From Rhodovulum adriaticum (GTDB lineage: Bacteria; Pseudomonadota; Alphaproteobacteria; Rhodobacterales; Rhodobacteraceae): DNA of 64,000 bases. Shown here piece after piece: positions 6,049 through 24,014 of the stretch; the stretch's first letter is position 1, and every line of letters begins with the position of its first letter. Made by a program: the position numbers and the translations under genes. The DNA is taken from positions 1-64,000 of the forward strand of contig NZ_SLXL01000004.1 of NCBI RefSeq assembly GCF_004345735.1, in the 5' to 3' direction. The notes beneath the pieces were generated by a model, which was not told the origin of the DNA, did no database searches, and worked only from the letters and a program-made list of their open reading frames with translations.

Positions 6049-7563
6049 ATGCGGGCGGGCCTGGCGCTGTGGCTTGCACTGGGAACGGGCGTCGCGCAGG
6101 CCCAAAGTCCGCTTTCGGCCATCGACTGGCTGTCGGATTCGGTGACGGCGCCGGACCTCGGGCGCACCGCACCGGGGATGGCACCGGTGCAACCGCTGTC
6201 ACCGATCACGGTGACCCCGCTGGGCGCGGCCAGCGCCGACGCGGTGGGACTGTTGCCCGCCGGGGTTGCGGGCCTGCCGCGCAATTTGTGGGGGGCGGGC
6301 GACAGCGCCGCCATCGCCGCCGCGATCCGGGCAGAGCAGGTGGATACCTTGCCCGCGGCGCAGGCCCTGTTGACGACCGTCCTGCTGGCCGAACTCGACC
6401 CGCCCACCGGGGAAACCCGCGAGGGCGAAATCCTGATGGCCCGCATCGACAAGCTGCTGGACATCGGCGCGCTGGATCAGGCGCAGGCCCTGGTGGAACG
6501 GGCCGGGCCGACCCATCCCGCGCTGTTCCGCCGCTGGTTCGATATCGCGCTACTGACCGGGCAGGAGGATCGCGCCTGCGCGGCAATGCGCGCCACGCCC
6601 GGGATCGCGCCGACTTTTCCGGCGCGTATCTTTTGCCTGGCGCGGGGGGGCGACTGGAACGCTGCCGCACTCACGCTGGAAACCGCCCGTGTGCTTGGCT
6701 ACGTGACCGAGGACGAGGATGCGCTGCTTTCGCGTTTCCTGGACCCGGCCCTGGCAGAGGATAGCGCCCCCCTGCCCGCCCCGGCGCGCCCCAGCCCGCT
6801 GATCTACCGCATGCGCGAGGCAATCGGCGAACCGTTGCCAAGCGCCATGCTGCCGCTGGCCTTTGCCCGTGCCGATCTGCGCCGCACCGCCGGGTGGAAG
6901 GCCCGGATCGCAGCCGCAGAGCGGTTGGCCCGGCGCGGCGTGCTGGGCCCGAACCAGTTGCTGGGCATCTGGACAGAGCGCAAGCCCGCAGCCTCGGGCG
7001 GGTTGTGGGACCGGGTGGAGGCGTTGCAGGCGGTGGACGTTGCGCTGTTGTCCGGCAAGCCGCGCGCCGTGGCCCGCGCGTTGCCCCGCGCCTGGTCGGA
7101 AATGGAACGGGCGGGGCTGGAGGTTCCTTTTGCCGAGCTTTACGGCGCCCGGCTGGCCCGGATGAAACTGGACGGCGCTGCGGCGGCGCTGGCCTTTCGG
7201 ATCGGCCTGCTGAGCAGCGATTACCGTGCCGTCGCCCGCGCGCATGACCCCGCAAACGCCGAAGAGGCGTTCCTGGCCGGGCTGGCGTTGGGGCAGGTCG
7301 CGGACCTGCCGCCCCGCGATGCGCTGGCCACTGCGCTGAAGGACGGGTTTGCCGCCCGCGACCTGCCGCCGGCCCAGGCCCGCCTGATCCGCGAGCACCG
7401 CCGGGGCGAGGCGCTTCTGGCGGCGCTCGACCTGATTACCGGGGGTGCGCGGGGCGATCTGGGCGATGTGACCGCCGCGCTAGCCATCTTTCGCCATATG
7501 GGCCTGGAGGACACCGCCCGCCAGACCGCGCTGCAACTGATGCTGCTGGAGCGGCGGGGATGA
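6049..7563 (+). CDS. Secreted protein of unknown function, helical-repeat-like
   Basis: A 504-residue protein with a clear signal peptide (MRAGLALWLALGTGVAQAQ), then an alanine- and leucine-rich, probably all-helical body reminiscent of TPR/SEL-type repeat proteins. No catalytic motif is visible. The ATG at 6049 gives a clean signal peptide; an in-frame ATG at 6025 would put eight polar residues in front. The stop overlaps the xerD start (ATGA), so it is co-translated with xerD. The position next to xerD suggests a cell-envelope or division link, but this is only inference. Confidence 0.7.
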   Translation: MRAGLALWLALGTGVAQAQSPLSAIDWLSDSVTAPDLGRTAPGMAPVQPLSPITVTPLGAASADAVGLLPAGVAGLPRNLWGAGDSAAIAAAIRAEQVDTLPAAQALLTTVLLAELDPPTGETREGEILMARIDKLLDIGALDQAQALVERAGPTHPALFRRWFDIALLTGQEDRACAAMRATPGIAPTFPARIFCLARGGDWNAAALTLETARVLGYVTEDEDALLSRFLDPALAEDSAPLPAPARPSPLIYRMREAIGEPLPSAMLPLAFARADLRRTAGWKARIAAAERLARRGVLGPNQLLGIWTERKPAASGGLWDRVEALQAVDVALLSGKPRAVARALPRAWSEMERAGLEVPFAELYGARLARMKLDGAAAALAFRIGLLSSDYRAVARAHDPANAEEAFLAGLALGQVADLPPRDALATALKDGFAARDLPPAQARLIREHRRGEALLAALDLITGGARGDLGDVTAALAIFRHMGLEDTARQTALQLMLLERRG

Positions 7564-15689: not shown

Positions 15690-16997
15690 TCACCCCTTGG
15701 GTTCATGCCCCAAGGCCGCAGGCAGGACCAGCGTGGCCGACAGGCCCGGCCTTGCATCGGCCAGGTCAAGGCGGCCGTCGGCGGCCTCGGCTATGTCCGA
15801 GGCGATCGCCAGGCCCAGCCCATGACCCCCGCCCTGATCGGCGCGGGCGAAGCGGTCGGTCAGGGCGTCACGGCGCGCATCCGGGATGCCCGGGCCATCA
15901 TCCCTGACAGTGATGCGCAGGCTGTCGGCCCCGGCCTGGGCAGCGATCTGGACCCGGCTGCGCGCATGGCGGGCGGCGTTCTCGGCCAGGGCGCCCAGGG
16001 CCTCGGCCAGGTCCTGTGCATCCAGCGGGGCGATAAGCCGTTCGTCGATATCCGATGTCCAGTGCAGACGGCTGCCATCCGGCGTGCGCCGAAGCACCGC
16101 GATCAGTTGCCGGACCACGGGGGCGACGGGTGTCTTTGCCGTGCGCGCCGCCGCAGCGCTGCGCGCGCGGGCGAGTTCGCGGTCGACAACGCGGCGCATG
16201 GCGCTCACGACGTCCTCGATCTCGGCGGCGGCCTGGGGCGCGCCTGCGGCCCGCAACCGTTCGGCATCGCCCATCAGCGCCTGCAAGGGGGTCTTCAGCC
16301 CGTGGGCCAGATCGGCGGCGCGGGTGCGGGCCCGTGCGATGTCGGCCTCTTGCGCATCGAGAAGCGCGTCGATCTCGGCGGCGAGTGGTACGACCTCGCT
16401 GGGCCAATCCGTCCCCATTCGCGCGACCCGCCCCGCGCGTAGCCCTGCCACACGGGCGCCCAAGGACCGCAGCGGGCGCAGCCCCAGGGCGACCTGCACC
16501 CATCCCGCCCCGATCAGGGCCAGACCCAGAACGATCAGGTAGGGGGCCAGATCGGTGACAAAGGCCTGCCGCGCTTGCTGCAAGTCGTCCGCATCCATCG
16601 CCACCGCGGCCCGCGCGGTTCCGCTGCCCAACCGCACCGGCAGGGTCACGCTGCGTTCCAGCACCAGAAGCGGCCTGCCATCGGGACCGGGCAGGCGATG
16701 CGTGTGCGCCTGCCCGTCGGCCAGAACATCGGGCGGCAGCGCCAGCGTCATGTCCCATAGCGAACGGGAGCGAAGCAATTGCCCGTCGGTGCGAATCTGC
16801 CAGTAAAGCCCGCCATAGGGCCGGGCGAAACGCGGATCGGCCGGGGCACGCTCCAGCACCAGCCCGTCCTCGGCGCGGACAAGTCCCGCCAGAACCTGGT
16901 CCAGCTGTACCGTCAGTTCGGCAATCGCGCGGCGCTCGACATGGGTCTTGAACACCGCGGAAATCCCCGCCGCGGCAAGCATCAGCGCCACGATCAC
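15690..16997 (-). CDS. Sensor histidine kinase of the SHP/DHC-linked two-component system
   Basis: A 435-residue membrane kinase. An N-terminal membrane helix precedes a periplasmic domain (about 25-170) and a second helix (LIVLGLALIGAGWVQVALG). A HAMP-like linker follows, then HisKA with the phospho-acceptor His in ADLAHGLKTPLQ, and a HATPase domain with NAARHARS, DDGPGIPD and GHGLGLAIA. The listed start is a GTG at 16997. The frame stays open upstream into the regulator gene without a standard start, so the exact start is uncertain. It is the third gene of a PepSY/regulator/kinase operon facing the cytochrome genes. Confidence 0.88.
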   Translation of the reverse strand: MIVALMLAAAGISAVFKTHVERRAIAELTVQLDQVLAGLVRAEDGLVLERAPADPRFARPYGGLYWQIRTDGQLLRSRSLWDMTLALPPDVLADGQAHTHRLPGPDGRPLLVLERSVTLPVRLGSGTARAAVAMDADDLQQARQAFVTDLAPYLIVLGLALIGAGWVQVALGLRPLRSLGARVAGLRAGRVARMGTDWPSEVVPLAAEIDALLDAQEADIARARTRAADLAHGLKTPLQALMGDAERLRAAGAPQAAAEIEDVVSAMRRVVDRELARARSAAAARTAKTPVAPVVRQLIAVLRRTPDGSRLHWTSDIDERLIAPLDAQDLAEALGALAENAARHARSRVQIAAQAGADSLRITVRDDGPGIPDARRDALTDRFARADQGGGHGLGLAIASDIAEAADGRLDLADARPGLSATLVLPAALGHEPKG

Positions 16998-17022: not shown

Positions 17023-17682
17023 TCACCCTGCCTCCAGATGATAGCCGAACCCGCGCCGGGTCGCGATGATCCCCGGGCCCAGTTTGCGCCGCAGACGGGC
17101 GATCACGGCCTCCAGGGCGTTGGTCTCGCGCGCGTCGTCGTCACCGTAAAGATGTTCCAGCAGTTCGGTCGGCGGTACGACCCGGTCGCGATGCAGCATC
17201 AGGTAGGCCAGCAGCCGGTATTCCAGCGCGGTGACCTGCACCGGCATACCGCGCAGCGCGACGGTCATCCGGTTGGTGTCCAGGCTGAGCGCGCCCGCCT
17301 CTTGCGTCGCCGCACCATGGCCACCCGCGCGCCGAACCAGGGCGCGGGCGCGGGCCACCAGCTCTTCCATGCGAAAGGGTTTTGGCAGGTAATCGTCGGC
17401 GCCGGCCTCGATCCCCTCCACCCGCTCTTGCCAGGTTCCCCGGGCGGTCAGCACCAGCACCGGAACCGTGCGCCCGCCCGCGCGCCAACGCTTCAGCACC
17501 GCCAACCCGTCCAGCCCCGGCAGGCCCAGATCCAGCACGACAAGGTCGTACTCCTCGGTATCGCCCAGAAACCATGCCTCTTCGCCGTCGGCGCAGGTTT
17601 CCACCCGGAACCCGGCAGCCGATAGCGCTGTCGCAAGATCGGCGGAAATGCGGGGGTCGTCCTCGACCGCAAGGGCGCGCAT
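17023..17682 (-). CDS. OmpR-family response regulator
   Basis: A 219-residue two-domain regulator. The receiver begins MRALAVEDDP, has phospho-acceptor Asp51 in LVVLDLGLPG and the conserved Lys in YLPKPF. A C-terminal winged-helix DNA-binding domain (about 125-219) includes TALEYRLLAYLM and VEVIARLRRKLG-type residues (AVIARLRRKLG here). Its start overlaps the PepSY gene stop (ATGA), and the kinase follows it. Its probable targets are the two matching operator-like elements at 18052 and 18890. That is inference from position and architecture. Confidence 0.92.
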   Translation of the reverse strand: MRALAVEDDPRISADLATALSAAGFRVETCADGEEAWFLGDTEEYDLVVLDLGLPGLDGLAVLKRWRAGGRTVPVLVLTARGTWQERVEGIEAGADDYLPKPFRMEELVARARALVRRAGGHGAATQEAGALSLDTNRMTVALRGMPVQVTALEYRLLAYLMLHRDRVVPPTELLEHLYGDDDARETNALEAVIARLRRKLGPGIIATRRGFGYHLEAG

Positions 17683-18026
17683 CAGTCGTCTCGCTCCTCG
17701 TCGTCGTCATCGTCGTATACCGGGCGGGGCGCGCGTCCGGTTGCAGCGTCCACCTCGTGTTCGACCAGCCGACCGCTCTCGGTCCGGATGTAAAGCTCAT
17801 AGATCCAGCGGCCGTCCTCGCGCTCCAGCTCCAGTTCGATCACCTCGCCCGGAACATCCTGCGCTGCGGCCTTGAGGATCGCGTCGAGCGGCAGGATTCC
17901 CCCCCGCTCGCGCGCCGCACGGGCGCGGTCATGGTCGTGGTCGTGCCCATGACCGCGCCATTGATGATCCGTTTCCGCAAAGGCGGCAAGGGGAACGACT
18001 AGCAGGAGGAAAACGGCGCGGATCAT
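17682..18026 (-). CDS. Periplasmic PepSY domain protein
   Basis: A 114-residue exported protein with a signal peptide (MIRAVFLLLVVPLAAFA), a histidine/aspartate-rich segment (HGHDHDHD) and one PepSY domain with ELEREDGRWIYELYI. The tail is very acidic (DDDDDEERDD). The His/Asp-rich stretch could bind metal. PepSY proteins often accompany two-component systems and may modulate the sensor. The ATG at 18026 gives the clean signal peptide. It is the first gene of the leftward regulatory operon, 25 bp from the operator-like element at 18052. Confidence 0.85.
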   Translation of the reverse strand: MIRAVFLLLVVPLAAFAETDHQWRGHGHDHDHDRARAARERGGILPLDAILKAAAQDVPGEVIELELEREDGRWIYELYIRTESGRLVEHEVDAATGRAPRPVYDDDDDEERDD

Positions 18027-18051
18027 GGCGCCATTGTCTACACCCGGCACC

Positions 18052-18091
18052 CTGACGGCAAGCTGACAGGCGGGATCAGGTCCGCGTCAGG
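18052..18091 (+). promoter_or_regulatory. Operator-like element, copy A (divergent regulatory region)
   Basis: CTGA half-sites at 18052 and 18063 and TCAG half-sites at 18076 and 18087 form a symmetric array with 11-bp spacing on each side. The core 18063-18090 matches copy B at 18901-18928 in 24 of 28 positions. The element lies 25 bp upstream of the leftward PepSY gene and about 96 bp upstream of the rightward cytochrome b gene. It could control both. Confidence 0.6.
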
Positions 18092-18186
18092 GGCTGCGGT
18101 GCACAAGGGCGCGGTCAACGGCAGGCGGCAGACGCCGATACGGCGCACCAAACGCCGCACAAAACAAACGAAAGGTACGAACGACG

Positions 18187-18819
18187 ATGACCGAAGCCGA
18201 GATAGAAAAGACGATCCAGGTCTGGGACCCAATCGTACGCATCGGCCACTGGGTGTTGGTGGCCGGGTTCGCAATCGCCTATCTGACCGAGGGCGAGCCC
18301 GAAGCGATCCATAGCTTTGCCGGCTATGCGATCTGCGTGGTGGTCGGGCTGCGGCTGGTCTGGGGCGTGATCGGACCGCGCCGGGCGCGCTTCTCGGATT
18401 TCGTGACCGGACCCACGCGTGCCATCGCGTATCTCAAGGGGCTTTTTTCGGGCACGGCGGAACGCCATGTCGGCCACTCCCCCGCCGGTGCCGCGATGGT
18501 GGTGGCGTTGCTGATCGCGCTGTCCGTCACCGGCTATTCCGGCATGGCCACGCTTGCCCAGGAAGAGGGGCGCGGCCCCCTGGCAGGGTCTATCCCGCAA
18601 CTGTCCGAGCGCGGCGCGGCCGCATGGGGCGACGAGGACGCGCGCGAACACCACGAGGGTGAGCATGGCGAAGGGGCGTGGGAAGAGATCCACGAAACCG
18701 CCGCCAACCTGACGCTGCTGCTGATCCTGCTGCATGTGGGCGGGGTGCTGCTGGCCAGCGTGGTCCACCGCGAGAACCTGACCCGCGCCATGGTCAACGG
18801 ACGCAAGCGCGCCGACTGA
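18187..18819 (+). CDS. Cytochrome b561-type membrane subunit (DHC-associated)
   Basis: A 210-residue integral membrane cytochrome b with four main hydrophobic segments. Candidate heme ligands are His in GHWVLVAGF, EAIHSFAGYA and LLILLHVGG. A long acidic, His-rich loop lies between helices three and four (DAREHHEGEHGEG). This subfamily carries electrons between the quinone pool and periplasmic diheme cytochromes of the DHC type. It is the first gene of the rightward operon, after operator-like copy A. A second cytochrome b domain is found in the next gene. Confidence 0.85.
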   Translation: MTEAEIEKTIQVWDPIVRIGHWVLVAGFAIAYLTEGEPEAIHSFAGYAICVVVGLRLVWGVIGPRRARFSDFVTGPTRAIAYLKGLFSGTAERHVGHSPAGAAMVVALLIALSVTGYSGMATLAQEEGRGPLAGSIPQLSERGAAAWGDEDAREHHEGEHGEGAWEEIHETAANLTLLLILLHVGGVLLASVVHRENLTRAMVNGRKRAD

Positions 18820-18837
18820 TCCGGCGTGACAGGAAAT

Positions 18838-18863
18838 GCCGCGCCCATCGGGGCGCGGCGAAC
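18838..18863 (+). repeat. GC-rich hairpin between two cytochrome b genes
   Basis: Just after the first cytochrome b gene, GCCGCGCC and GGCGCGGC can pair around a short loop. There is no T run, so it is not a classical terminator. It may stabilise or partly attenuate the message before operator-like copy B. Confidence 0.4.
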
Positions 18864-18889
18864 CCCGCTGCGCCTCAGGGCAGCGCTTG

Positions 18890-18928
18890 CTGACAGGGAA
18901 CTGACAGCCGGGATCAGGGACGCATCAG
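18890..18928 (+). promoter_or_regulatory. Operator-like element, copy B (upstream of the b-c fusion gene)
   Basis: CTGA half-sites at 18890 and 18901 and TCAG half-sites at 18914 and 18925 repeat exactly the offsets of copy A (0, 11, 24, 35). It lies 50 bp upstream of the ATG of the cytochrome b-diheme cytochrome fusion. Its presence inside the cluster suggests that the fusion gene, SHP and DHC have their own promoter controlled by the same regulator. Confidence 0.6.
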
Positions 18929-18978
18929 CCACCCTGTGCAAAGCCCTGGACAGACATTGAGAACTGGAGACAGGACAG

Positions 18979-20097
18979 ATGCCCGCCGCCCCACAGCAAA
19001 AAGAGCCCCTGGTCCCGGTCTGGGACATCTGGGTGCGCCTGTTTCACTGGACGCTTGCGGCCAGCATCGCGGGCGCGGCGGCGACGGGGTTTCTGGGCGA
19101 TGCCCGCTGGCTGGCGGTTCACTTGACCTGCGGGCTGAGTGCTGCCGCGCTTGTGTTGGCACGGATCGTTTGGGGGGTGTTGGGGTCGACCCATGCGCGC
19201 TTTGCCGACTTCCTGCCGCATCCGCGTGCGGTCATCGCGCATATGTTCGGGAACGGCCCGCGCCATCTGGGGCACAATCCGCTGGGGGCGCTGATGGTGC
19301 TGGCGATAATCGGGGCGATCACGGCGCTGACCGTGACCGGGCTGATCGGGCTGGGCGGCTGGCTGCGTAACGGCCCCTTTGCCGCCGATTTGGGCACCGC
19401 GGGCGGGCGGCAGGCGCTGGAATTGCACGAACTGCTTGCCTGGGCAGTGCTGGCGATGGTGGCCCTGCACCTTCCCGGCGTGTTTCACGAGCGGCACCGC
19501 CGCAGCGATCCGCTGATCCGCGCCATGCTGACCGGGCGCAAACCCGCGCGCGCAGGCGATGCGCGGGCGCACGCCGCCCAGCCGCAGGGCCAACGCGCGC
19601 TGAAGATCATCGCGATGCTGGGCGCCCTGTTGGGGCTGGCGACCGCCGGGCTGTCTGCCCGCACGGTACCGGACCTGCCCGCCCCGATGCCCCCGGTCGT
19701 CGCCGAGGAATGCGGGGCCTGCCACATGACCTTTCACCCCAGCCTTTTGCCCGCCGCGTCCTGGCACGACATGATGTCCGGCCTCGACGACCATTTCGGC
19801 GAGAATGCTGCCCTTTCCGCCGACCTGACCGCCGAGATCGAGGACTGGCTGACCGCCCATGCCGCTGAAACCGTGGAGACTGCCCCTGCCCGTCTGTTTG
19901 CCAACCCGAACCCCGAGGCACCGGGCAGCATCACCCGCACCGCGGCCTGGAAACGCCTGCACGGCGACCTGCCCGACAGTCTGTTCGCGCGCGCGCCGAT
20001 CTATGCGCGCACCAACTGCATCGCCTGCCACGGCGATGCCGAAACCGGGCTGTTCAGCCCCTTTGCCCTTTCCATTCCCAAGGAGACATCCCGATGA
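18979..20097 (+). CDS. Cytochrome b561 fused to a DHC-like diheme cytochrome c
   Basis: A 372-residue protein. Residues 10-185 form a four-helix cytochrome b domain with candidate heme histidines in RLFHWTLA, VHLTCGLS and VALHLPGVFH. A second membrane anchor follows at about 208-226 (IIAMLGALLGLATAGL). A periplasmic diheme cytochrome c domain comes last, with CGACH at 245-249 and CIACH at 347-351. The c domain shares ECGACHM, LLPA.SW and HFGENA.L with the separate DHC gene downstream, so the two are paralogous. The fusion would pass electrons directly from membrane heme b to heme c. It overlaps the SHP gene by four bases. Confidence 0.85.
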   Translation: MPAAPQQKEPLVPVWDIWVRLFHWTLAASIAGAAATGFLGDARWLAVHLTCGLSAAALVLARIVWGVLGSTHARFADFLPHPRAVIAHMFGNGPRHLGHNPLGALMVLAIIGAITALTVTGLIGLGGWLRNGPFAADLGTAGGRQALELHELLAWAVLAMVALHLPGVFHERHRRSDPLIRAMLTGRKPARAGDARAHAAQPQGQRALKIIAMLGALLGLATAGLSARTVPDLPAPMPPVVAEECGACHMTFHPSLLPAASWHDMMSGLDDHFGENAALSADLTAEIEDWLTAHAAETVETAPARLFANPNPEAPGSITRTAAWKRLHGDLPDSLFARAPIYARTNCIACHGDAETGLFSPFALSIPKETSR

Positions 20098-20483
20098 AAC
20101 GACTAGCATTGCTTGCCCTGATTGCCGCATCGCCGACCTTTGCCCAGGACACCTCCCCGGCCAAACTGATCGCCGGGTACGAGGCGCAATCCGGAAAGGC
20201 AGCCGACCCCGCCGCGGGCCGGGCGTTCTATCTGGCAGCTCACGGCACCGGCAAACCCGAAACGCCGTCCTGCACCACCTGCCACACCAAGTCGCCGAAA
20301 GCCTCGGGCCAGACCCGCGTCGGCAAGGTGATCGACCCGCTGGCCCCCTCGGCCAACCGGGCACGCTTTACCGATAGCGCGAAGGTCGAAAAATGGTTCG
20401 GCCGCAATTGCGACAGCGTTCTGGGCCGCGCCTGCACCGCTGCCGAAAAGGCCAACCTCATCGCCTGGCTCGCCAGCCTCTGA
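20094..20483 (+). CDS. shp: SHP-type (DUF1924) oxygen-binding cytochrome c
   Basis: A 129-residue exported monoheme cytochrome c. The signal peptide ends near residue 17 (TFA-QD), the heme site is CTTCH at 60-64, and a C-terminal GRNCDSVLGRAC motif follows. In the well-studied Rhodobacter sphaeroides SHP, an asparagine is the second heme ligand and leaves on reduction so that oxygen or NO can bind. Asn105 here would be residue 88 after signal cleavage and sits next to a Cys106-Cys114 pair that could form a disulfide. It overlaps the fusion gene and is followed by DHC, its expected electron donor. Confidence 0.88.
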   Translation: MKRLALLALIAASPTFAQDTSPAKLIAGYEAQSGKAADPAAGRAFYLAAHGTGKPETPSCTTCHTKSPKASGQTRVGKVIDPLAPSANRARFTDSAKVEKWFGRNCDSVLGRACTAAEKANLIAWLASL

Positions 20484-20499: not shown

Positions 20500-20940
20500 A
20501 TGAAAGCACTTACAACCGTTGCGATTGCCTTGCTTGTCGGCGCGGCCCCTGTGCATGCGGACGGCGACTGGATCCGCCCAGTGACCCATGCCGCCACACA
20601 GGAAGAATGCGGCGCCTGCCACATGGCCTATCCGGCCGGGTTCCTGCCCGCCCGGTCCTGGTCCGCGATCATGGGCGATCTGGAAAACCATTTCGGCGAA
20701 AACGCACAGTTGGACGAGGCAACCCGCGCAGAGATCGAGGCCTATCTTGTGTCCAACGCGTCCAAGGGGTTCCGCCTTTCGGTATTCAGCACACCGCCGA
20801 TCAAGATCAGCGAATTGCGCTGGTTCAAACACGAACACAGCCACGAGGTTTCCAGCGCAATGATGCGCAAGGCCAAGTCATTCTCAAACTGTGCGGCGTG
20901 CCATCGCGGCGCAGAGCAGGGCTATTTCGACGACGATTGA
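20500..20940 (+). CDS. dhc: Diheme cytochrome c DHC
   Basis: A 146-residue periplasmic protein with a signal peptide (residues 1-20) and two heme sites, CGACH at 37-41 and CAACH at 131-135. Between them are HFGENAQL and the HEHSHEV segment, which may supply distal histidine ligands. DHC is known as the electron donor to SHP and receives electrons from a membrane cytochrome b. All three components are here. The ribosome site AGGAGAAA precedes the ATG. Confidence 0.9.
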   Translation: MKALTTVAIALLVGAAPVHADGDWIRPVTHAATQEECGACHMAYPAGFLPARSWSAIMGDLENHFGENAQLDEATRAEIEAYLVSNASKGFRLSVFSTPPIKISELRWFKHEHSHEVSSAMMRKAKSFSNCAACHRGAEQGYFDDD

Positions 20941-20949
20941 AACTGACCC

Positions 20950-20985
20950 CGCCCGGGCACCGCGATGCAAGCCGGTGCCCGGGCG
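20950..20985 (+). repeat. 13-bp perfect inverted repeat after DHC
   Basis: CGCCCGGGCACCG at 20950-20962 pairs fully with CGGTGCCCGGGCG at 20973-20985 around a ten-base loop. No T run follows, so it is not a standard intrinsic terminator. It is a strong 3' RNA structure that probably protects the operon message or terminates it with Rho. Confidence 0.6.
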
Positions 20986-21050
20986 CAGCCCTCTTGCCCG
21001 ACCGCCTCAGGATTGGCACTCTCCAACCCGCTGACGGGAGGGGGAAAGCC

Positions 21051-21584
21051 ATGAAGAGGGTGCCGAGAAACAAGTTTCTCGACGGATGCAGGATTTTCTG
21101 CGCGGGGTTCTTTCTTTGGGATATCGTTGACGATCTCGTCAAACTGCAACCCAGCGTCCTGTCCTACTCCGACATCGTGCACATGACGATCGAGGCACTG
21201 GCGGTTGCGGTGCTGCTGTTCAGCTTGCGCGTCAGCTATCAACGCGAACATGTGCTGCGCCGCATCGGCCACGACAAGGACCGCACGCTGTCGGCGCTGC
21301 GGGACTGCTTCGACTCCCTGCTGCGCGAACGCTTTGCCGAATGGGAGTTGTCCGCCGCCGAGAGCGATGTGGCGCTGCTGGCGTTTCGCGGGTTGCGCAT
21401 CGGTGAAATCGCCGCCGCGCGCGGCACCCGCGAGGGCACCGTGAAGGCGCAACTAAGCTCGGTTTTTCGCAAGGCCGGGGTCGCGACACGGGCCGAATTC
21501 ATGTCTCTCTTTATAGAGGACTTTCTTGATCTGAGCACGACCCATGAGGGTGGAACTAATACAACTCTTAAAACCGCCACCTGA
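21051..21584 (+). CDS. Membrane-anchored LuxR-type HTH regulator
   Basis: A 177-residue protein. Two hydrophobic segments lie near the N-terminus (CRIFCAGFFLWDIV and HMTIEALAVAVLLFSL). A charged linker with YQREHVLRRIGHDKDR follows, then a C-terminal LuxR/GerE helix-turn-helix (about 115-165) with LSAAESDVALLAFRGL, IGEIAAARGTREGTVK and SSVFRKAGV. The ATG at 21051 follows a strong ribosome site (GGGAGGGGG). It sits between the SHP/DHC operon and the diheme cytochrome/propeller pair. It may be a one-component membrane regulator for either; the signal is unknown. Confidence 0.75.
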   Translation: MKRVPRNKFLDGCRIFCAGFFLWDIVDDLVKLQPSVLSYSDIVHMTIEALAVAVLLFSLRVSYQREHVLRRIGHDKDRTLSALRDCFDSLLRERFAEWELSAAESDVALLAFRGLRIGEIAAARGTREGTVKAQLSSVFRKAGVATRAEFMSLFIEDFLDLSTTHEGGTNTTLKTAT

Positions 21585-22014
21585 AACCACCCTTTGGAAT
21601 GCCGGTGACAGGCGGAATTGCACTTTGGTTTATGCGCCATTCCGCGCCTGAATTGCTGCGCTGCAAAAAAATTGCCGCGCGACAGCGAAAGGCGACAGAT
21701 CCACAGAAATCTTTTTAATTACAAAGCTTTGTGTTTTTACCTGCTTGAAATACATAATTCAGGACGCATTTTCAGCCCCACAAAAAATTGCGCGTGCAGC
21801 ATTCCCCGGCCAAATTCAACATCTTTGTCGCATATTTTATTATTATTTGTTTCCATATGATTAGGGGCAACTTTTCATCACAACAAACCCAAACCCAAGC
21901 AAACTTGACAGGCAACTCACAAATTTCTTTCAAATCATTCCAAGCACGCAGGGGGAGCGCGTGCCTGCCTTTCAGGCTTTCGAAAAAAACTTTCGGATTA
22001 TGAGGGAGGATGAC
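21585..22014. other. AT-rich 430-bp intergenic region
   Basis: This gap is strikingly richer in A and T than the rest of the window, especially 21640-21960, with runs such as CATATTTTATTATT. No credible reading frame was found in it. TTGACAGGCA near 21904 resembles a -35 region, and TGACAGGCGG near 21610 resembles part of the operator-like elements upstream. It probably holds the promoter of the cytochrome/propeller pair; the base composition could also mark an acquired segment. Confidence 0.5.
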
Positions 22015-22929
22015 ATGACTTATCGTATCTCGCGCATCACGCGCTTCTTGCCGAGCCTTGCATTCGGCGTGGCCGTAACCTTGTCGGGCGCCGCGCTGGC
22101 CGACCCAGAGGACGGCGATGCCTACGACGATGACGACCATGAGGAAAGCATGCCGATGACGCTCTCCGAGCGGCTGGTGCGCGACATTCGCGAAGGCAAT
22201 CTCGGCGCCGAGGCCGACGACATGGTCGTCGAAGAGCTGATCCTCAAGCGCAACCTGCCGATCCCCTATAGCTATATCGACACGCTGATGCACACGCCCA
22301 ATGCATTCGGCCCCGGTCCGGCCTGTGTGGTGTGCCATTCCACCAACGACCCGGCAAGCAGCTATCGCGGGTTGGATCTGTCCACCTGCGAGGGGGTTCT
22401 CGCCGGCTCGACCGAAGAACCGGCACGCCCGATCATTCGCCCTGGCGAAGACCCCAAGCACGATCCGCTGGGCCGCCGGCTGCGCAACAACCGCATGCCA
22501 CTGGGCACCAGCTTCCACCAGGCGCCGGATGCCGACAACATCGCACTGATCGAAGACTGGATCCTGAGCGGCGCGCCCAACGATGCGCATTTCAACGAGA
22601 ACGTCCTGCCGCTCTTTGCGACCGAAAGCGCCTTTGTCGAGGATTCTCCGGCCTGCACCGATTGCCACATGTCGAACCAGGAACCGCCGAGCTTTCATGA
22701 AATGGACCTGACCTCGTTCGAGGGCATCATGCTGGGGGCGGATTCGGTGGCCAAGGGCGTCGAGAACGCGACCAAGATCGTGATCCCCGGCGACCCGGCG
22801 GCCAGCCCGATCCTGCAGCATCTGACAGAAAACCGGATGCCCCCGGGGATCAGCCCGGTCGAGGACCGCGATCACCCCAACACGCGCATCCTGTTCGCCT
22901 GGGTGCGGCAAGGGGCGTCGTGCGACTGA
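22015..22929 (+). CDS. Exported c-type cytochrome with two heme domains
   Basis: A 304-residue protein with a signal peptide (cleavage near AALA-DP, residue 29) and an acidic stretch ([10 protein letters not shown]). Two similar domains follow: CVVCH at 104-108 with NRMPLG at 160-164, and CTDCH at 214-218 with NRMPPG at 274-278. The CxxCH plus later NRMP pattern is typical of cytochrome c domains with His/Met ligation. The ATG at 22015 follows AGGGAGGA; an in-frame ATG at 22000 adds five residues. It overlaps the beta-propeller gene by ten bases, so the two are surely co-translated. Confidence 0.85.
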
Positions 22930-24014
22930 GCCGGCGCAGCCTGCTGCTGGGGCTGCCGCTGTCGCTGGCCGCCCCCGCGGTGCTGGCCCGAGGGGGGCCG
23001 CCAGGCCCCGCCCACCTGCACCGTTGGCAGACCGCCGATACCCGGCTGGGGCCGCCTGCCCTGGCCGGGACCGGCGATGTGATCGTCGCGGGCGCGGCCC
23101 TGGTGGGCAGTATCGCGCCCGGCGCGGACACACCGCGCTGGCAGCTGCCCCACATGCTGCCCGGCGGCGCGGTGTTCCGGCCCCGCACAGCACAGCGACG
23201 GGTTGTCGTCGGGGCGCGCGGCGGGCTGGTCTGCCTGGATCAGAACGACGGCACCGAAATCTGGCGCGCGCCCGCCGAGATCGAGATCGGCGTCCCCGCG
23301 CTCGCCCCCGGGCTGGTTGTTCATGGCGACGGCCACCGGATCGTTGCCCGCGATCTGCAAACCGGCGCGGTGCTTTGGCGGTATGACACGGTTCCTGACA
23401 CGCGGGCCAGCTATGCGCCCTGCGTTCTGGGCGACCGGGTCTTTGTCGGACCGGGCGACGGCCAGCTTTACGCGCTGCGTCTGGCGGACGGGCGCCCGGA
23501 CTGGATGCTGAACCTGCGGGGGCGCGCGCAATATCTGCGCCAGATCCACGCGGGCCAGGGGCTGCTTGTGGCCGGCAGTTACAGGGAACAGCTTTTCGGG
23601 ATCGACCCGGCAGATGGGCGCATCTTGTGGGAATTCGTCGCGGGAAATTTCATCAACTCGCACCATGTCGTGGACGGCTTGGCCTGCCTGTGGTCGCCCA
23701 CTGGCTGGATCTATGCCATCGACATCCATACCGGCGCCGTGCGCTGGCGCCATCGTACAACCGACTATTACCTGCCCGGCGGCAATGACTGGGCCCCGTT
23801 GATGGCCGAACTGGCCAGCGCCGAGGGGCGGCTTTACACCCTTGACCTGCGGGCGATGCTGCGCGTGCTGGACCTGCGCAACGGGCAGATGATCGCCGCG
23901 ATGCAGGTGCCCGGCCGCGTACGCCACGCGCTGCTGCCGTTGGGGGGCGGTCAGGTTGCGCTGCCCATGAACGACGGCAGCCTCTTGTTCGCGGGATTGC
24001 CAGAGGGCGGCTGA
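22920..24014 (+). CDS. Exported PQQ-type beta-propeller protein
   Basis: A 364-residue protein with a twin-arginine-like signal ([14 protein letters not shown]). Repeated propeller blades follow, with motifs such as [40 protein letters not shown] and [11 protein letters not shown]. These are the tryptophan-docking repeats of quinoprotein-like propellers. No complete set of PQQ and calcium ligands or a disulfide pair could be confirmed, so it may be a binding or scaffold protein rather than a dehydrogenase. It starts with GTG inside the end of the diheme cytochrome gene, its probable redox partner. Confidence 0.8.

Follow-up and report, generated by a model that had tools for sequence, protein, structure and literature searches.

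The window (the whole 64,000-nucleotide stretch of Rhodovulum adriaticum DNA analysed here) holds two copies, A and B, of a 39-base array of four half-sites, CTGA-N7-CTGA-N9-TCAG-N7-TCAG. Judging from the comparison of related sequences, these arrays are very probably sites for the neighbouring sensor–regulator pair, which would switch on itself and cytochrome genes in many related bacteria. An autoregulated two-component regulon, as put forward in a first-pass annotation of this DNA, is well supported by comparative evidence, since the arrays track the regulator gene, are found at the promoters of the PepSY-RR-HK genes (PepSY protein, response regulator, histidine kinase) and of the SHP genes, and lie at a constant distance from a -10-like element.

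Arrays A and B and Their Surroundings

The features of the region are as follows.

15690–16997, minus strand: sensor histidine kinase, SK1-like (Pfam HATPase_c)
17023–17682, minus strand: OmpR/PhoB-family response regulator, candidate binder of both arrays (Pfam Response_reg and Trans_reg_C)
17682–18026, minus strand: PepSY protein (ATG at 18026 from sequence; Pfam PF03413)
18035–18040, minus strand: proposed -10 of the PepSY-RR-HK promoter, TAGACA, 11 bp past array A
18052–18090, no strand assigned: array A, putative operator, exact match (CTGA at 18052 and 18063, TCAG at 18076 and 18087)
18102–18107, plus strand: weak proposed -10 of the divergent cytochrome b561 promoter at array A, CACAAG
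18187–18819, plus strand: cytochrome b561, divergent from PepSY-RR-HK across array A (Pfam PF01292)
18890–18928, no strand assigned: array B, putative operator, exact match (CTGA at 18890 and 18901, TCAG at 18914 and 18925)
18937–18945, plus strand: proposed TG-extended -10 region at array B (TG at offsets 47–48, A at 51)
18979–20097, plus strand: cytochrome b561–diheme cytochrome c fusion (cytb-DHC), first gene past array B (PF01292 and PF09626)
20094–20483, plus strand: SHP (DUF1924) cytochrome (Pfam PF09086; the name SHP as in PMC2909971)
20500–20940, plus strand: soluble diheme cytochrome c, DHC (Pfam PF09626)

Both arrays match the pattern at 16 of 16 specified bases, and the half-site positions and offsets originally proposed (0, 11, 24 and 35) were confirmed in the two copies. 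The reported identity of 24 out of 28 bases is correct as a figure, but it belongs to the right-hand 28 bases (18063–18090 versus 18901–18928) and not to the central 28, which agree at 21; over the whole array, 31 of 39 bases are identical. As first described, copy A lies in the divergent region beside the PepSY-RR-HK genes, between these and cytochrome b561, while copy B precedes the cytochrome b-c fusion gene, upstream of cytb-DHC/SHP/DHC. The two copies do not, however, flank the SHP/DHC operon, as had been claimed: the flanked gene is the first cytochrome b561 (18187–18819).

The 3.35-Mb genome contains no exact copy other than A and B. Allowing up to two mismatches added one 14/16 site, on another contig, and the reversed pattern gave no match in the whole genome at the same tolerance. 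With up to three mismatches, the window yielded two matches versus a mean of 0.10 after shuffling, a count of two being reached by 1 of 100 shuffles.

Both the receiver (PF00072) and the winged-helix C-terminal domain (PF00486) of the regulator score above the Pfam cut-off; its best-scoring NCBIfam model is PmrA (193.6 of 330 bits, below the cut-off). The PepSY protein, whose PF03413 match was obtained on the open reading frame 17682–18050, has a hydrophobic N-terminal stretch and is rich in His and Asp; its small gene adjoins those of the regulator and the kinase, as in a DbfQRS-like module. The kinase carries GGLYWQ and RSRSLWD, variants, as judged by eye, of the SK1 signature given in the accessible text of Meyer et al. 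(PMC2909971). Further downstream, the reading frame after DHC (20607–21584) shows, by eye, a LuxR-like helix-turn-helix near its end and had no Pfam match at E ≤ 0.001. It is followed, at 21961–24014, by a PSCyt1-type cytochrome gene and a PQQ/BamB-like beta-propeller gene, a possible redox pair beside the cluster.

Conservation of the Array at Regulator Loci

A protein search with the regulator gave 297 relatives, the best 80 of which were taken as loci. The exact array was present in 67 of these 80 loci (78 sites), whose titles name 35 genera, and the reversed pattern had no exact match in any of the 80. The first-pass annotation had proposed looking for the array in relatives with the same cluster, and this comparison upholds it. 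The array is thus, as far as sequence comparison tells, a conserved operator of the regulator-relative loci.

It could be supposed that A and B arose by chance, or by a recent local duplication without function, and their identity at 31 of 39 bases does mean that one may derive from the other. We consider the probability of this negligible, given the number of loci and genera with exact arrays, their diverged spacers and the empty reversed control; chance itself is ruled out by the control patterns and by the co-occurrence with the regulator described below.

Because choosing exact matches fixes the half-site bases by construction, we made two pattern-free checks on the 79 loci whose upstream DNA was long enough (L049, which starts 35 bases before the regulator gene, was left out). 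TCAG-N7-TCAG was found in 76 of the 79, while any other spacing from 2 to 14 occurred in at most 2; the resulting direct-repeat period, 11 bp, matches the direct repeats of about 10–11 bp of the OmpR/PhoB family. CTGA pairs with N7 were present in 60/79 loci and the inverted core, CTGA-N9-TCAG, in 58/79. A MAFFT alignment of the 79 upstream regions showed conservation at the half-sites, at the -10 A and at the ATG but not in the spacers, and the promoter-proximal pair was more conserved than the distal one.

These data also bear on what the binding unit may be. The inner inverted repeat could be bound by a symmetric dimer, as with AgrR or CopR, leaving the outer half-sites as accessories; indeed, AgrR binds an inverted repeat that has extra in-phase direct repeats (PMC7380067, accessible text). 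However, in 19 of the 79 loci the direct pair is all that remains (among these, L044 has a 15/16 array), and the inverted core, present in full arrays, is absent from pair-only loci. Moreover, L037, L062, L079 and L110 (three loci plus genome G182) have at least three direct repeats and no inverted core. The palindromic core is hence disfavoured as the binding unit, and we regard this reading as improbable compared with one in which each direct-repeat pair is bound as a unit.

Co-occurrence with the Regulator Gene

Three genome scans were carried out, covering 295 genomes of the same family, 385 across the class and 254 across the phylum; the samples partly overlap. In the family, the exact array occurred in 14 genomes (16 sites). 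The regulator was found at E ≤ 1e-60 in 37 of the 295, and with at least 69% identity in 18 of these 37; all 14 array genomes fall among the 18 (Fisher p about 1e-20, related sequences not being independent). The remaining four of the 18 keep the promoter-proximal pair, in one case within a 15/16 array. No exact array was present in the 19 of the 37 genomes with looser regulators (47–59% identity), nor in any of the 277 family genomes lacking a regulator of 69% identity. When one mismatch was allowed, a site was found in 15/18 regulator-positive versus 0/18 chosen regulator-negative genomes.

Across the class, exact arrays turned up in 12 genomes. A regulator at E ≤ 1e-55 was present in 94 class genomes, comprising 11 of these 12 and 83 in which the exact array was missing; in the phylum scan, four genomes had it. 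Altogether the three scans gave 30 distinct exact sites, every one of them with an OmpR-type regulator gene no more than 3 kb away, and no match for the reversed control pattern. Three of these nearby regulators are looser relatives (G672, 45% identity; G854, 40%; G823, 50%), and G854 gave no PepSY match. The site of G823 (L194:1501-1539) is an array outside the Alphaproteobacteria, lying between PepSY-RR-HK and a reading frame whose product resembles, by eye, a cation diffusion facilitator.

Most of the more distant regulators are without the array. TCAG-N7-TCAG was present in 8/27 class loci with a regulator of about 53–65% identity and in 0/10 family loci with one of 48–59%, and for the looser regulators (48–59%) no shared motif was found. 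Certain other families have CTGAAC as half-site, with unchanged offsets, together with a different recognition helix (NTxEV versus NAxEA), a correspondence confounded by shared descent; among the 112 loci with both half-site and helix, 101 lack A at the fifth base, 7 are mixed and 4 have mostly A.

A different regulator, such as PrrA/RegA, might bind the arrays instead, and control of SHP by PrrBA in Rb. sphaeroides has been reported, although it is partial (PMC2909971, accessible text). Yet the arrays track the PepSY-linked regulator, and the exact array is missing from the 277 family genomes without it (at least 69% identity) in a search that covered this regulator and the array. We therefore deem PrrA/RegA a very improbable binder, and take the adjacent OmpR-type regulator as the candidate.

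Position of the Arrays Relative to Promoters

Array anatomy was counted in the 80 regulator loci, which comprise 57 arrays upstream of PepSY (A-type) and 21 others. All 57 A-type arrays have A at offset 51, and 50/57 have T at offset 50. The first ATG (or GTGAAA) lies 22–25 nt past the array in 37/57; the rest have mostly earlier ATGs, which are not necessarily starts. Together, the A51/T50 preference and the ATG distance fit a -10 placed 11 bp past the last half-site, that is, a class II layout with a leader no longer than a few bases. In the other arrays, TG at 47–48 (19/21) and A51 (18/21) are the rule. A group of arrays at the end of the kinase gene (L006 to L068, locus position 6503-6580) has the stop codon of the open frame within the first CTGA in 16/18 cases.

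The mirror position of A51 carries T (at -13) in 57/57 A-type arrays versus 5/21 others, which points to a second, divergent promoter at A. At array A, the exact full array was found in 48/52 loci with a recognised divergent gene versus 9/27 without one (Fisher p 7e-8; L049 excluded), and three of the four exceptions with a divergent gene (L044, L061 and L066) hold 15/16 or 14/16 arrays. Among relatives, the divergent genes code for PepSY_2 (in some cases along with cytochrome b561), for RTX calcium-binding proteins or, in two cases, for a BOF protein. For Rhodospirillaceae, Meyer et al. had already remarked on orf1 genes in divergent orientation and suggested that a divergent promoter may exist (PMC2909971, accessible text). 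The B arrays keep the distal pair even though the kinase gene lies on that side, where the mirror -10 base is mostly absent.

We consider it quite probable that the arrays are operators of the adjacent OmpR-type regulator, that tandem dimers activate class II promoters from them, and that the mirrored pairs form a bidirectional operator. Each direct-repeat pair, GTCAG-N6-GTCAG with its 11-bp period, would bind one head-to-tail dimer of the phosphorylated regulator, and the bound dimer, 11 bp upstream of the -10, would activate the promoter in a class II way. Two such pairs face to face would make a symmetric 39-bp bidirectional operator. Copy A would drive PepSY-RR-HK, implying positive autoregulation, probably through a nearly leaderless transcript, and its other side would drive the divergent cytochrome b561; copy B would drive cytb-DHC/SHP/DHC.

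Since the proximal pair covers the -35 region, we also considered that the regulator may bind the arrays and mainly repress, or switch between the two sides of copy A; a protein bound at the last half-site, 11 bp away from the -10, could obstruct the polymerase. Two precedents speak against this, namely BqsR, which activates with the same period and position (PMC4682146, accessible text), and dbfQRS, for which positive autoregulation is reported (PMC12714742, accessible text). The placement ahead of the inferred -10, together with the 6-bp spacer between pentamers, corresponds to the activating position of BqsR at -35. Repression or switching thus seems unlikely, and activation remains the reading we prefer.

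Comparison with Known Systems

The boxes of PmrA/BasR and PhoB are direct repeats of 11-bp period ahead of the -10. They are not known to be built as two mirrored pairs, and they differ from the arrays in half-site and in regulon.

BqsR (CarR, PA2657) of Pseudomonas aeruginosa binds TTAAG-N6-TTAAG and activates, with the downstream pentamer over the -35 (PMC4682146, accessible text). It shares with the arrays the direct repeats of pentamers, the 6-bp spacer, the 11-bp period and the clustering of pentamers, and its system, like that of the window, has PepSY genes alongside (PMC12714742, accessible text). On the other hand, its half-site is TTAAG and not GTCAG (CTGAC), its clusters are runs of direct repeats, with no mention of mirrored pairs in the accessible part of PMC4682146, and it has hundreds of candidate sites there, versus two exact ones in this genome. 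Owing to the different half-site, we did not file the arrays as a BqsR operator.

DbfQRS of Vibrio cholerae unites, like the window, a small PepSY protein, a response regulator and a kinase in one module, but its outputs are biofilm and metabolism, whereas here they would be SHP and DHC. The accessible text of PMC12714742 yielded no operator for it ("binding site" and "ChIP" are absent). For the DbfQRS-like modules of this clade, the arrays provide a candidate operator. Overall, the architecture is akin to the known tandem operators of the BqsR/PmrA/PhoB type, and the mirrored-pair variant is new; no earlier description of this operator was found among the papers listed in the literature searches, which covered mostly open-access texts.

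SHP Operons and Unlinked Sites

The gene set of the window (SHP, DHC and cytochrome b genes beside Orf1/RR/SK1) is the same as in the SHP operons with Orf1/RR/SK1 of Meyer et al. (2010), who proposed control of SHP by SK1; the word "operator" is absent from their text (PMC2909971). According to its accessible part, no regulators were found at Rhodobacteraceae SHP operons, whereas in the window they are linked.

Among 20 regulator loci with an SHP match, 18 have an exact array before cytb-DHC, downstream of the regulator gene. The other two are L071, with the proximal pair only, and L060, where SHP lies some 2 kb beyond array A and has no array of its own in the locus. SHP was found in 9 of the 295 family genomes, 4 with the regulator and 5 without. 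The array or its proximal pair was present at the SHP operon in 4/4 of the former versus 0/5 of the latter: an exact array precedes cytb-DHC in G000 (the genome of the window) and in G012, only the proximal pair does so in G225, and G051 has two 15/16 arrays. The five genomes without the regulator had no array anywhere at up to one mismatch, and no direct pair in the 160–340 bases seen upstream of cytb-DHC.

In G051, SHP and the regulator are on different contigs, and the arrays before the SHP operon are located as follows.

L179:2137-2175 and 2205-2243 (G051:C4:623136 and 623204): 15/16 arrays, with the SHP operon on one side and a small, divergently oriented reading frame on the other

By eye, neither has a well-placed -10 toward cytb-DHC. 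G051 presumably represents Rb. sphaeroides 2.4.1, whose chromosomes I and II it fits. In Rb. sphaeroides, according to Meyer et al., chromosome II carries the genes for SK1 and Orf1 and chromosome I the one for SHP, with no functional relationship known between them (PMC2909971, accessible text). From the arrays before this unlinked operon we predict that the regulator controls SHP in trans; the Rb. sphaeroides SHP operon, described as lacking linked regulators, would then be controlled from the second chromosome.

The third site of the R. adriaticum genome is the following.

L003:1501-1539 (G000:C5:137748): 14/16 site, 82 nt upstream of the small reading frame L003:1621-1824

About 0.9 sites of 14/16 are expected in this genome (by arithmetic, at equal base frequencies). 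The site has TGCGA at the B-type -10 offsets, and it lies, with the small reading frame, between genes that resemble nifB and nifA by eye. This frame and the one beside the two G051 arrays have in common the motif WCDAPWSSGRT; neither had a Pfam match at E ≤ 1. A search for the small reading frame in 50 chosen genomes gave nine matches at E ≤ 0.01, of which those in G000 and G051 were accepted and the other seven (E 0.001 to 0.01) treated as noise. A plasmid record of Rhodobacter sp. CZR27 also has the motif with a 14/16 array, with no fitting -10.

Breadth of the Proposed Regulon and Possible Signal

Arrays in relatives neighbour genes for RTX calcium-binding proteins, for BOF proteins and for PepSY_2, the last sometimes accompanied by cytochrome b561, and one genome has them next to an SHP operon that is unlinked. 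The regulon therefore looks wider than the first-pass annotation proposed. It is possible, though we would not rely on it, that the array marks, across Alphaproteobacteria, a small regulon dedicated to the PepSY-gated two-component system. Such a regulon would take in the system itself (with its bidirectional, nearly leaderless promoter), SHP/DHC/cytochrome b, RTX calcium-binding, BOF and PepSY_2 genes and the WCDAPWSSGRT family, SHP being controlled even where unlinked, as in G051. Being a 16-base signature of the probable regulator's operators, the array would allow the regulon to be read from sequence.

The gene content hints at a divalent-cation or an envelope-damage signal. CarO is a BOF protein. 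CarSR/BqsSR responds to Ca2+ and Fe and has carO as a target (PMC11559002, accessible text). This parallel, the RTX and BOF genes by the arrays and the His- and Asp-rich PepSY protein give a hint, if only that, of divalent cations as the signal. In three loci (L024:6515, L056:3224 and L081:3742), exact arrays lie by genes with RTX calcium-binding repeats, separate from the PepSY array.
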